64,000 bases of DNA from assembly GCA_945863875.1 (NCBI GenBank), contig CAMBBS010000011.1:1-64000 (forward strand). Reading direction: 5' to 3'. The notes beneath the pieces are model-generated. The model searched no databases. It saw nothing but the letters and a program-made list of their open reading frames with translations, and had not been told where the DNA came from. This DNA is from Desulfopila aestuarii DSM 18488. GTDB lineage: Bacteria > Desulfobacterota > Desulfobulbia > Desulfobulbales > Desulfocapsaceae. A program made the translations under genes and the position numbers. Below, piece by piece: positions 1 through 6,215 of the stretch; positions within the stretch are counted from its first letter, which is position 1, and each line of letters begins with the position of its first letter.

Positions 1-473
1 AGGCATCTGGGCCGGCGCCGTGGCTGACAATAACGCTGGTATTGTCGATAACGCAGCGTCCACAGGCGCCCTGCATCTACGCCATGGCTGATAGGGGTAA
101 AAAGATGCGCTTTTCCGTTTTCACTATCAAATATTATCCATATCATTCACCTGGGTCCGTGTGCTGCACAAATATGTTTCTGGTGGTCTTAAAGATATTA
201 CCGCCCAAAAAGAAAAATCGGGGACAACCAGTTGAATTATTTCAGAATTTCTTAAATATCCACGATGAATTGATCGGTAATGGTCTAAATTTGGAGCTGA
301 CCAGCAACACCTAATCCTGCCAGAGGACATATTCAATAAGGTTTAACAATAAAACTGTACGGAAAAACCTTATGTGCGATTAAAAACTATGAGGCTGCTG
401 CTTTTGTGATTGCCGACTACATGGATTGTAATCGTGATTGACAATCTATGCACAAGCCACTATCATAGGCTCC
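1..473. other. No supported gene
   Basis: I see no convincing gene in this stretch. On the minus strand, bases 76 to 1 read through a short Cys-containing segment (ACGRCVIDN) that could be the start or interior of a protein running off the left edge. An in-frame stop lies just before its only ATG, and no ribosome binding site is visible. The other reading frames look like chance. The region leads into an accessory area full of gene remnants. Confidence 0.4.
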
Positions 474-1658
474 ATGATTACTCGAAAACTCGCTGACAGG
501 TTGGTGCAACTCGCCACATATTATCCCGTTGTAGCAGTGACCGGCCCCAGACAGGCAGGAAAAACCACGCTGTGTCGAGCCACCTTTCCGGATAAGCCCT
601 ATGTATCGCTGGAATCCTTGGATTTCCGCGAGTTCGCCGAGAATGATCCACGGGGATTTTTGATGGAATACCGGCAGGGTGCCGTCCTCGACGAGATCCA
701 GCAGGCACCTGGACTGATAAACTATCTGCAAACGGAAGTCGATGAACATCCAGAGCCAGGCAGATTTATTCTCACCGGCTCACAGCATTTCGGCATATCA
801 CAAATCATTTCCCAGTCCCTCGCCGGACGTTGTGGCCTGCTGACCCTGTTGCCCCCTGATTTTGGTGAACTGCAGGGCTTCTCCGAGGTCCCTGATGATC
901 TTTTCACCCTCCTCTGGCAAGGCGCTTACCCGAGGATCTATGACCAAAACATTCCAGCCCACCAGTGGCTGGCCGACTACATCGCCACCTACGTACAGCG
1001 TGATGTCCGCCAAGTTGTGAATGTCGGTGACTTACTAACCTTTTCCAGCTTTCTCAAACTTTGCGCTGCACGTACCGCGCAGGAGATCAATCTTTCGTCC
1101 CTCGGGGGTGATGCTGGGGTTTCCCACAATACGGCCAAATCCTGGTTATCTATTCTGGAGGCCAGTTATATCATTCACCGGATACCAGCCTGGCAGGTCA
1201 ACATTCGCAAGCAGATAGTGAAGGCGCCCAAGCTTCATTTCTTAGATACCGGGCTGGTCTGCTATCTTCTGCAGATCAGGGAGCCTGGACAACTCAGGTT
1301 GCATCCTCTACGAGGGGCTATTTTTGAAAGCTGGGTGGTTTCTGAGCTTTACAAAGGACTAGCCCATCAAGGCGAGCAGCCGATTCTCCACCATTATCGT
1401 GAAAGTCGAGGGTTGGAAATGGATGTACTCGTGCAACGTGGTGATTGTCTGCATGCCGTCGAGGTCAAATCTGCGGCCACGGCAGCCTCTGATTTTTTTA
1501 AGGGATTTGAACAGCTTGCCGCGAGAATACAGACAGCCAGCCTGTCCCTGCATCTTGATAATGTGGTGGTTTATGGAGGCGAGAAATCGCAGCAACGTTC
1601 AACGGCCCGGCTGCTCAGCTGGTGGGACGTGGGCAAGATTTTGCATCAGGCATTATAG
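474..1658 (+). CDS. AAA-family ATPase with DUF4143 domain
   Basis: This is a member of the large family of stand-alone ATPases with an N-terminal AAA_14 P-loop and a C-terminal DUF4143 domain. The Walker A motif GPRQAGKTT is near residue 24, and the Walker B region reads AVLDEIQQ. A sensor-like LTGSQHF follows. The C-terminal half has the usual winged-helix region (SHNTAKSWLSILEASYIIHRI) and a nuclease-like end with EMDVLV and HAVEVKS, which recall a PD-(D/E)xK fold. The ATG at 474 begins MITRKLADR, as homologues do; an ATG at 438 would add 12 unconserved residues. The length is normal and the frame is open. The cellular role of the family is not settled; members are common in accessory DNA and near toxin-antitoxin genes, which fits the fic remnant next door. 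Confidence 0.85.
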   Translation: MITRKLADRLVQLATYYPVVAVTGPRQAGKTTLCRATFPDKPYVSLESLDFREFAENDPRGFLMEYRQGAVLDEIQQAPGLINYLQTEVDEHPEPGRFILTGSQHFGISQIISQSLAGRCGLLTLLPPDFGELQGFSEVPDDLFTLLWQGAYPRIYDQNIPAHQWLADYIATYVQRDVRQVVNVGDLLTFSSFLKLCAARTAQEINLSSLGGDAGVSHNTAKSWLSILEASYIIHRIPAWQVNIRKQIVKAPKLHFLDTGLVCYLLQIREPGQLRLHPLRGAIFESWVVSELYKGLAHQGEQPILHHYRESRGLEMDVLVQRGDCLHAVEVKSAATAASDFFKGFEQLAARIQTASLSLHLDNVVVYGGEKSQQRSTARLLSWWDVGKILHQAL

Positions 1659-4184: not shown

Positions 4185-4784
4185 TTACATTGACACGGAG
4201 GGCAGGGCACAATTGTCATTGGTTTGATCGCACTCGAGTTCCATCCAGTCATAAAAGACTCTTGGCTGCCCGTCGATTGCGAAGATGATCCGCTCGATGG
4301 CCGGAAACTGCCCCAGAGTTCTCTGGATCTGTGTAAAAAACTCCGCCCTTCCACAGCTGGAAGTGGCACCCGTAAGCTCCTGGCGTCTATCGTGCAGGTC
4401 GACATAAGCGGTTCCGGACCTGATCTTCAGTCGTTTCAACAACCCTGCAGTGCGTACGGAAAAGAAGGATCTATAGCCCTGGGAGCGCTCCTCAGCTGTT
4501 GGTCCTCTAAACAAGGCCTCAAGCGCAGCGGCAGCCACATTGGTGATCGACGATGAGGATCTCGGAACCGGGAATACCGCATCGCATACCATCGTGTTTT
4601 TCGCCAAATCGTCGTTATTGAAATAGACGATGAATCGGCTGAAGGGTTGATCCTTAGGCGGTGACAGGGTCGCAGAACAACCGCATATGGCAATCAGGAC
4701 GATGATGACGGAGACCAGAAGGAAAAGCGTCTTTCTGACCCCTGCGGCATGTTTTCGAAAAGTGGGTTTGCCTAATCTGTGCAT
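4185..4784 (-). CDS. GerMN-domain lipoprotein
   Basis: An exported lipoprotein with one GerMN domain. A basic N terminus is followed by a hydrophobic stretch (LFLLVSVIIVLIAI) and a lipobox ending at Cys in AICGC, near residue 36. The GerMN pattern then follows: FIVYFNNDD, AALEALFRGPTAEE, a GTAYVDLH strand and FPAIERIIFAIDGQP. GerMN domains occur in the Bacillus spore protein GerM and in many Gram-negative lipoproteins, and are thought to bind cell-wall material. The neighbouring gene is an amidase-like protein on the same strand 80 bp upstream, which suggests a shared cell-wall role. The reader should take the domain call as good and the function as open. Confidence 0.75.
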   Translation of the reverse strand: MHRLGKPTFRKHAAGVRKTLFLLVSVIIVLIAICGCSATLSPPKDQPFSRFIVYFNNDDLAKNTMVCDAVFPVPRSSSSITNVAAAALEALFRGPTAEERSQGYRSFFSVRTAGLLKRLKIRSGTAYVDLHDRRQELTGATSSCGRAEFFTQIQRTLGQFPAIERIIFAIDGQPRVFYDWMELECDQTNDNCALPSVSM

Positions 4785-4864: not shown

Positions 4865-5554
4865 TTATTCAGGGATGTTCAATAAACCGCGTTCGGGATC
4901 CCAAACGACCAGGGCATCCTCATCCACCTCGGTCTCAAACAAAACATTGTCGCCGTGAATCACGCGGATTGTCCTGGCCATACCGGCCTGATTGAGAGCC
5001 TCCAACATAACCGCCGCTTTGTTCAGTATCTTCTCAGCGTAGTCTGCCTCGCTACCGCCCCCTGCCAGATCAGCACCACGATCGTTCGGGTTGCTTTCCT
5101 TGTACTTGTGACCAACGCTGAAGGCGATCAGCCCGCCATTCGGGAAAAACCGGTGAATGCTCTCGACGAGGATTTGCGCCAGATCGGTTTGCCCTCGGTC
5201 ACTACGGATAATATCCGCATGCTGAGGATTGCTCGCGAACAGTGGCTCAAGCAGAATGGCCGGCATCTTGGTATGCTTCAAGTTGCCGTCACCTCGGCCG
5301 TTCCAACCACCGACCAGTATACCGTTGTCGCCCCCGACCGTAGTTCCGAAAAATCTGGCAACTGCCCTGGCGTACCAACGACCCCAGTTCTTGCTGGTGG
5401 GCGATGCATTCGAACCCGTCACTACAACCGCGTAGCTGGCGGTGCTGGAAGAACTGCTGTTAAAGTGATGTTCGACATAGGCAACCGCTTTGTCCGTGTT
5501 CGCCTTGCTTTGACGTGCTGAGTAATTGCCCTTATAGAAATTGACCTTGTACAT
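4865..5554 (-). CDS. Amidase_3-like protein with permuted motif order
   Basis: A 229-residue protein carrying every hallmark of zinc N-acetylmuramoyl-L-alanine amidases (Amidase_3), but in rotated order. Residues 12-32 resemble the second half of the fold (an R...AN segment leading to VEHHFN, with the third zinc His at 29/30), followed by the catalytic-Glu segment MPAILLEPLFASNP (E103). The segment that normally opens the domain comes after this: FSVGHKYK (H149, first zinc ligand), DRGA and GGSEADYA (E169, second ligand). About 40 further residues follow. There is no signal peptide. The start has a strong AAAGGAGG site 7 bases upstream. It could act on peptidoglycan after lysis or in a phage-like context, but the substrate is unknown. 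Confidence 0.6.
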   Translation of the reverse strand: MYKVNFYKGNYSARQSKANTDKAVAYVEHHFNSSSSSTASYAVVVTGSNASPTSKNWGRWYARAVARFFGTTVGGDNGILVGGWNGRGDGNLKHTKMPAILLEPLFASNPQHADIIRSDRGQTDLAQILVESIHRFFPNGGLIAFSVGHKYKESNPNDRGADLAGGGSEADYAEKILNKAAVMLEALNQAGMARTIRVIHGDNVLFETEVDEDALVVWDPERGLLNIPE

Positions 5555-5948
5555 GCTGAACCTCCTTTAAAAATGCGTGAGCGTGACCAATGCTGTCTGC
5601 ATTTTCCGTTTCGACCGGAGAAAAGCATCCTTTATCTGAGATGGTTGGGGGAGTTAAACACTACCTAAGTGTAGATTAAGCAATGTTTCTTTGTTTGTAC
5701 AGTCTTGGAAAATCCTTTTATGGTCAGAGGAAAATTTACTGCCTCTAACATGAAATGGTTGTTTAAGCGGAATGTATTTGACAAATTTTGGCTGGATAAT
5801 CCTCCTTTAACGATCAGTAAAAACCCATCACTTATCGCCCATGATTCCCACTTTTACGGGAATGTCCGAATCGGATTCGGACATTGTTTCCCTACAACGG
5901 GAAGCATAGCCGCATGTCACGCGGCACGGTGATGGACATAAGAGGGGA
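5555..5948. other. Gene-free stretch with 25-bp perfect inverted repeat
   Basis: No gene is supported here. The one notable element is a perfect palindrome at 5861-5885 with 12-bp arms around a single G (half-site AATGTCCGAATC). It lies 64 bases before a truncated gene fragment and could be an operator, a terminator lacking a T tract, or a recombination site. The remaining open frames lack ribosome binding sites and protein-like composition. Confidence 0.45.
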
Positions 5949-6215
5949 ATGCCAGTGAAGCCGAACGCCTTTATCGCTATGTCGTTCGGCAGCAAACCGG
6001 GGCCGATGGGGCAAGTAATCAATTTCAATCGGATCTACAGCGAACTTATAAAACCCGCGTTGCAAGCCACGAGGCTCGAAGGCTTTCGCGCCGAAGAAGA
6101 GGAACAGGCGGGCGACACTTGCCAGGGGCATCCAGCGCCTGACCGAGATGGTCAAAAAACCTCTTCGGCTCAGGCTGGCAGGAGCTTTAAATCAGGTTAC
6201 AGAAATACAGGATGA
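5949..6215 (+). pseudogene. Fragment of a DUF4071/TPR-type protein
   Basis: The first 50 residues (FIAMSFGSKPGPMGQVINF ... LIKPALQATRLEGFRAEEEE) look like the N-terminal domain found in some large tetratricopeptide or signalling proteins, where an AFVAMPFG-type opening is followed by an acidic FRADEE segment. After QAG the similarity is lost and the rest (from DTCQGHPAPD) is low in hydrophobic residues, as expected for an out-of-frame read. Another frame at 6114 reads LARGIQRLTEMV, which suggests a deletion or frameshift joined two separated parts. I treat it as a remnant. Confidence 0.45.

Follow-up and report, generated by a model that had tools for sequence, protein, structure and literature searches.

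A circularly permuted Amidase_3 protein from Desulfopila aestuarii and its relatives in bacteria and uncultivated viruses

The window analyzed here is a stretch of 64,000 nucleotides from Desulfopila aestuarii DSM 18488 (contig CAMBBS010000011.1). On its minus strand, positions 4865..5554 encode a 229-residue protein of the Amidase_3 type, which begins with an ATG at 5554 and ends with a stop codon at 4865-4867; on the plus strand the same interval is interrupted by stops, and the open reading frame exists on the minus strand only. A Shine-Dalgarno-like AAGGAGG (5561..5567, minus) lies 6 bases ahead of the ATG, and an in-frame TAA (5567-5569, minus) is found four codons before it. These two features support the start well, and no upstream part of the gene is missing. 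Directly downstream, after a gap of 80 bases, is a gene for a GerMN (Germane) lipoprotein-like protein (4185..4784, minus; PF10646, E 7.3e-12), the start of which resembles a lipoprotein signal by eye. GerMN is found together with Amidase_3 in other proteins. The order amidase then GerMN recurs at 7 of the 52 loci examined, including one on a plasmid, where GerMN is annotated. A conserved neighbourhood was considered and rejected, since neighbours differ between loci and GerMN alone recurs widely.

The locus is flanked by an AAA_14/DUF4143 ATPase gene and an IS200-type transposase. The ATPase (window positions 438-1658) matches the PADLOC candidate PDC-S01 (E 5.8e-100), and a short, apparently cut-short ORF at 5949-6215 has a start that looks, by eye, like that of a TIR-like or TRAF-binding conflict protein; this ORF has no Pfam or PADLOC match. 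Because neither the amidase nor the GerMN protein has a PADLOC match, a defence link of the amidase was set aside. At a few other loci proteases lie just upstream of the amidase gene, namely a subtilase (L007), an M6 protease with a P domain (L013) and a Nal1-like protein (L019), with L006 as a further case. The locus proteases, including an S41 protease fused to the amidase at L040, do not cluster between loci except in the sister pair L006 and L007, and we therefore claim no protease system.

The segments of the protein stand in an unusual order. Residues 1-140 (5135..5554, minus) correspond to the C-terminal two thirds of the canonical domain, from strand b2 to the last helix, and hold H30 (5465..5467, minus) and E103 (5246..5248, minus). 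Residues 141-187 (4994..5134, minus) correspond to the N-terminal third, that is strand b1 with the GH motif and helix a1, and hold H149 of the GH motif (5108..5110, minus) and E169 (5048..5050, minus). The remaining residues, 188-229 (4868..4993, minus), form a C-terminal tail that varies within the family and has no Pfam match; it is short and beta-rich, with strands at 194-200, 203-210, 217-219 and 224-226 in the AlphaFold model, and it is found in most bacterial members and is missing or replaced in several viral ones.

When the protein is aligned with 45 canonical Amidase_3 domains, H149, E169 and H30 occupy the columns of the canonical H, E and H (45/45 each) and E103 that of the canonical E (44/45, with one gap). 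By alignment columns, then, the protein carries the three zinc-ligand positions (His, Glu, His) and the catalytic Glu position of PF01520. From what is established for Amidase_3, we take H149, E169 and H30 to be zinc ligands and E103 to be the general base. Each of these four residues is invariant in all 50 permuted members; E28, N32 and D158 are invariant in the 50 as well. Position 29 is variable (H in 31, Q in 18 and A in 1). The preliminary description had read the order as His(29/30)-Glu(103)-His(149)-Glu(169), which placed the residues correctly; the histidine at the zinc-ligand position, however, is H30 and not H29.

The departure from canonical order can be followed with sequence profiles. 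In its native order, the window protein matches PF01520 over residues 11-134, covering positions 56-173 of the 174 in the profile (42.7 bits). When residues 141-190 are placed before residues 1-140, a single match covers profile positions 5-173 of 174 (51.0 bits). Both scores exceed the curated cut-off of 27 bits. The native protein does not present the whole domain in canonical linear order, and because its native match covers only profile positions 56-173 we file it as a permuted Amidase_3 variant. Alignment of the native family by hhalign against a canonical phage-type profile, built from 13 viral or phage domains, produced a crossed pair, with residues 11-138 aligned to profile positions 68-193 (score 137.1) and residues 141-186 to positions 7-48 (score 32.8); the rotated family gave one alignment to the same profile (score 165.0, 175 columns). 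Similarly, a PDB profile search reached the N-terminal region of 4rn7, 7tj4, 3czx, 5emi and 1xov only after rotation. Both halves of the protein thus match Amidase_3, and the merging of the crossed alignments together with the full-length Pfam match bears out the earlier proposal that a circular permutation explains the order of the motifs.

That proposal had also suggested rotating the sequence at about residue 140, and the cut proved to be exact. With the cut tried at every second residue in 40 permuted members and scored against a profile of 45 Amidase_3 domains (all-canonical), the best position was residue 140, within 3 residues, in all 40, and rotation there raised the score in every member, by 6.2 to 18.2 bits. 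For P0001, the score rose from 41.3 to 56.0 bits with the all-canonical profile and from 59.2 to 79.0 bits with the phage-type profile, and when the C-terminal segment was shuffled, none of 400 controls came up to the real rotated score with either profile. As a further control, all 45 canonical domains preferred their natural start with the all-canonical profile. The phage-type profile gave this outcome for only 24 of the 45, the weaker result probably reflecting extra residues in AmiC-type domains. Taken by itself, the moved segment gives a weak signal: residues 141-186 alone align with a hhalign P of 1.2e-5, residues 141-191 alone have no Pfam match, and an HMM of the 47-residue segment, a weak single-segment test, scored above the 99th percentile of shuffles in only 2 of the 38 scored canonical domains. 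The case for permutation stands on the order, the columns and the family, and not on the small segment alone.

A scan of 84,980 species genomes returned 42 loci, of which 39 have complete genes; one locus (L043) was dropped as a 21-residue match, the truncated L036 and L042 were kept from the alignment, and the 39 with the window protein make up the 40 sequences used above. All 39 complete relatives have the same order, at 46-86% identity to the window protein. This bears directly on the possibility that the protein is a truncated or frameshifted canonical amidase whose C-terminus resembles the GH segment by chance. The partial Pfam match in native order would fit such an artefact, but the relatives of identical order, the ribosome-binding site and upstream stop, and the failure of all 400 shuffled controls leave it a vanishingly small probability, and the conservation of the family already refutes it. 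Nor is the GH segment present elsewhere: at E 0.1, no leftover copy was found outside the gene in the 52 loci, bar one chance-level match. The missing GH remnant, with the ribosome-binding site and the upstream stop, rules out a wrong start or a frameshift. The evidence supports circular permutation as the best account of the order in this reading frame.

We then consider the predicted structure. An AlphaFold2 model built with 40 family sequences (pLDDT 93.3, pTM 0.81) has its elements in the order b2-a2-b3-b4 and so on to the last helix, followed by b1 (141-147) and a1 (169-185); a model of a canonical control (L044) shows these elements too, beginning with b1 and a1. Comparison by VIA, a sequential aligner, fitted the permuted model to solved amidases with Z of 11-13 and rmsd of 1.9-2.6 over no more of the model than residues 1 to about 141, leaving the moved segment, 141-187, outside the fit. 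One such fit places model residues 1..140 on residues 46..179 of 1jwq, its C-terminal part, with Z 12.2. The canonical control, by comparison, aligns end to end (Z 17-25), with residues 1..178 on 1jwq 2..175 at Z 23.4. Over residues 1..141, therefore, the predicted fold is that of Amidase_3, and the different fold that would have spoken against the preliminary description did not appear.

In the same comparison, LigB-type extradiol dioxygenases aligned with approximately residues 1..186 of the permuted model in sequence order (Z 6-8.5, rmsd 3.6-4.8), and the 50 rows listed for the canonical control contain no LigB-type chain. From these two observations, rotation may have brought the elements into an order like that of LigB. 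According to a remark in SCOP, for which the literature search found no paper, LigB-like folds are a permuted form of the common fold. Such sequential alignment without rotation could be taken to mean that a different alpha/beta enzyme has converged on Amidase_3. We consider this highly improbable: the amidases reach higher scores over fewer residues, the permuted protein shares sequence profiles and all four catalytic columns with them, and by VIA's own note a Z under 8 may mean only a common arrangement.

The permuted proteins are widely and thinly spread. Their hosts, as labelled in the records, are mainly Pseudomonadota and also include Thermodesulfobacteriota, Campylobacterota, Acidobacteriota, Armatimonadota and Bacillota; one carrier is a plasmid, from Candidatus Thiodictyon syntrophicum. 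Among 97 relatives of the window genome, the permuted protein was found in the window's own genome only, two other matches being canonical, and a survey of the phylum found it in 2 of 395 genomes, the window's own included. A canonical Amidase_3, full-length or nearly so, is also present in all eight bacterial carriers tested. A tree was built from 50 rotated domains and 45 canonical ones, with two viral rows omitted (L051, with a protein identical to that of L050, and L056, truncated and the same as L055). In it, the permuted proteins form one clade with SH-aLRT 100 by a quick method. The tree thus indicates a single origin of the permutation. The first split inside the clade, in the midpoint-rooted tree, is L040:3342-5183, a PDZ and S41 fusion from a Bacillota MAG. 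The closest tree relatives of the window protein are gammaproteobacterial, with L002 at 88% identity over the tree columns. These relatives, together with the absence of the protein from congeners, point to lateral transfer of the permuted amidase, in either direction as far as the tree shows.

Some members carry further domains. At L017 a Glucosaminidase domain stands ahead of the permuted amidase, at L040 it is followed by a PDZ-containing S41 protease, and at L041 there is a signal-like stretch at the start, by eye, with weak TPR matches at the end; these partners fit an extracytoplasmic wall hydrolase, but such a leader is missing in most family members inspected, the window copy among them. 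The tail of L034 was first read by eye as an SLH domain, for which Pfam gave no match.

The permuted order is also found on uncultivated viral contigs, in 10 of the 15 loci recovered there; the other five (L057, L058 and L060-L062) are canonical in order. On one viral contig (L048) the neighbours are tail sheath and head closure proteins, and on another (L059) a terminase is accompanied by a holin-like match (E 1.7e-4). A locus from Acidobacteriota (L035) is prophage-like, having a terminase nearby and ORFs that look, by eye, like membrane proteins. Furthermore, the three viral records tested contain no Amidase_3 other than the permuted protein. For the window copy itself, cultured phage records gave no match to the native protein at E 1e-3, and alignments of the rotated protein to four Vibrio phage records, covering 97% of its length, had E values no better than 0.4 to 4. 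No phage genes were seen among the ten flanking ORFs scanned, and no prophage is visible. Given the lack of a visible prophage and of a cultured phage match at E 1e-3, the indications of an endolysin role for the window copy are indirect.

Based on these results, we consider it very likely that these proteins constitute a permuted zinc N-acetylmuramoyl-L-alanine amidase of one origin, which would serve phages as a stand-alone endolysin and would have passed repeatedly by lateral transfer to bacterial chromosomes and to at least one plasmid. The conserved residues, the fold and the neighbours suggest how it would work. The old termini, at the last helix and strand b1, would be joined by a short linker near residues 137-141, and the chain would have been opened at the junction of helix a1 and strand b2 to give new termini. 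In the expected fold, H149, E169 and H30 would gather around one zinc ion, and E103, as general base, would activate a water molecule; the bond between MurNAc and L-Ala would then be cut as it is by canonical members. In phages, the amidase would be released by a holin. Bacterial copies might act in lysis, in remodelling together with the GerMN protein, or inside the cell.

The last two of these roles raise the possibility that the bacterial permuted copies are not lysis enzymes at all, and serve instead to recycle imported wall fragments inside the cell or, with the GerMN lipoprotein as partner, to remodel the envelope. The window copy has no signal-like hydrophobic stretch at its N-terminus (maximum 15-residue mean hydropathy 0.58). 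GerMN lies downstream at the 7 loci described above, chromosomal copies often lack nearby phage genes, and the eight bacterial genomes tested have a canonical Amidase_3 besides. However, the patchy distribution is unlike that of a recycling enzyme, the viral members in the three records tested are the only Amidase_3 there, and one member is fused to Glucosaminidase. We therefore regard a non-lytic function of the bacterial copies as rather unlikely, and retain the permuted phage endolysin with repeated transfer to bacteria as the preferred reading. A more specific version of it, which we put forward tentatively and with somewhat less than even confidence, is that this is the first permuted zinc amidase family, that it arose once in uncultivated phages, was captured repeatedly by several phyla, and in one branch became part of a GerMN wall-remodelling or lysis operon. 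Its parent would then have been a phage-type Amidase_3 endolysin.

The rotated order could have arisen by tandem duplication and trimming, or by splitting of the gene and rejoining of the pieces in swapped order. No tandem-duplication intermediate or remnant was found in the 52 loci, where neither a duplicated GH segment nor a C-terminal remnant occurs, as the second route would have it. Two predicted viral structures in BFVD (A0A8S5R343 and A0A646QVT2), a 124-residue protein matched over 120 columns and a 307-residue protein matched over 183 columns, are of note here. The 124-residue protein is perhaps the C-terminal-type part alone, and each of the two might represent one half of the domain or a further permuted relative. 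The resemblance of the 124-residue protein to the C-terminal part alone would suit a split gene, yet this record is possibly just a fragment, a pair of split genes was not seen, and the remnants of a duplication may simply have been lost. A split and swapped rejoining in place of duplication and trimming seems to us doubtful, although it keeps some weight.

Amidase_3 is a much studied family of wall hydrolases and a common endolysin module, and a natural permutation within it indicates that new termini between helix a1 and strand b2 are compatible with the fold. The rotated order has been kept across the whole family, in bacteria and uncultivated viruses. Work on endolysins gains a scaffold with its termini elsewhere, and one origin with many descendants and canonical relatives provides a clean case for how permutations arise and spread. 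When profiles are applied in native order, annotation recognizes the amidase in part only and overlooks one half of its active site. In the literature, no permuted Amidase_3 was found among the matches listed; going by their titles, most of the other matched papers concern phage genomes, and "circularly permuted" there probably refers to genome ends. Passages in PMC6403190 and PMC10318531 describe a circularly permuted catalytic domain in NlpC/P60 cysteine enzymes (YaeF, LRAT-like), a superfamily that includes wall hydrolases.

Those enzymes have a cysteine papain-like fold, unlike the zinc amidase described here. GerMN (PF10646) proteins are separate from the amidase and are related to it as a downstream gene partner, at the 7 of 52 loci. 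Canonical Amidase_3 enzymes, such as CwlV (1jwq), AmiC (4bin) and the C. difficile amidase (4rn7), are like the window protein in profile match, in the H-E-H-E columns and in the fold of residues 1-141; they differ in linear order, their first third being last in the permuted protein. Canonical-order phage endolysins (L060, Ayaqvirus S45C18 (L095), those of Vibrio and Cellulophaga phages, and Neisseria 3czx) are likewise small, stand-alone domains, and the signatures E-x-H-F-N and LLEPfF-x-SN are common to them and the permuted family. The profile of 13 phage-type domains, among which these endolysins are included, also fits rotated P0001 best (79.0 versus 56.0 bits); its hhalign score for the rotated family is 165.0. 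In these endolysins, however, the GH motif comes first, and the permuted clade stands apart from them in the tree.
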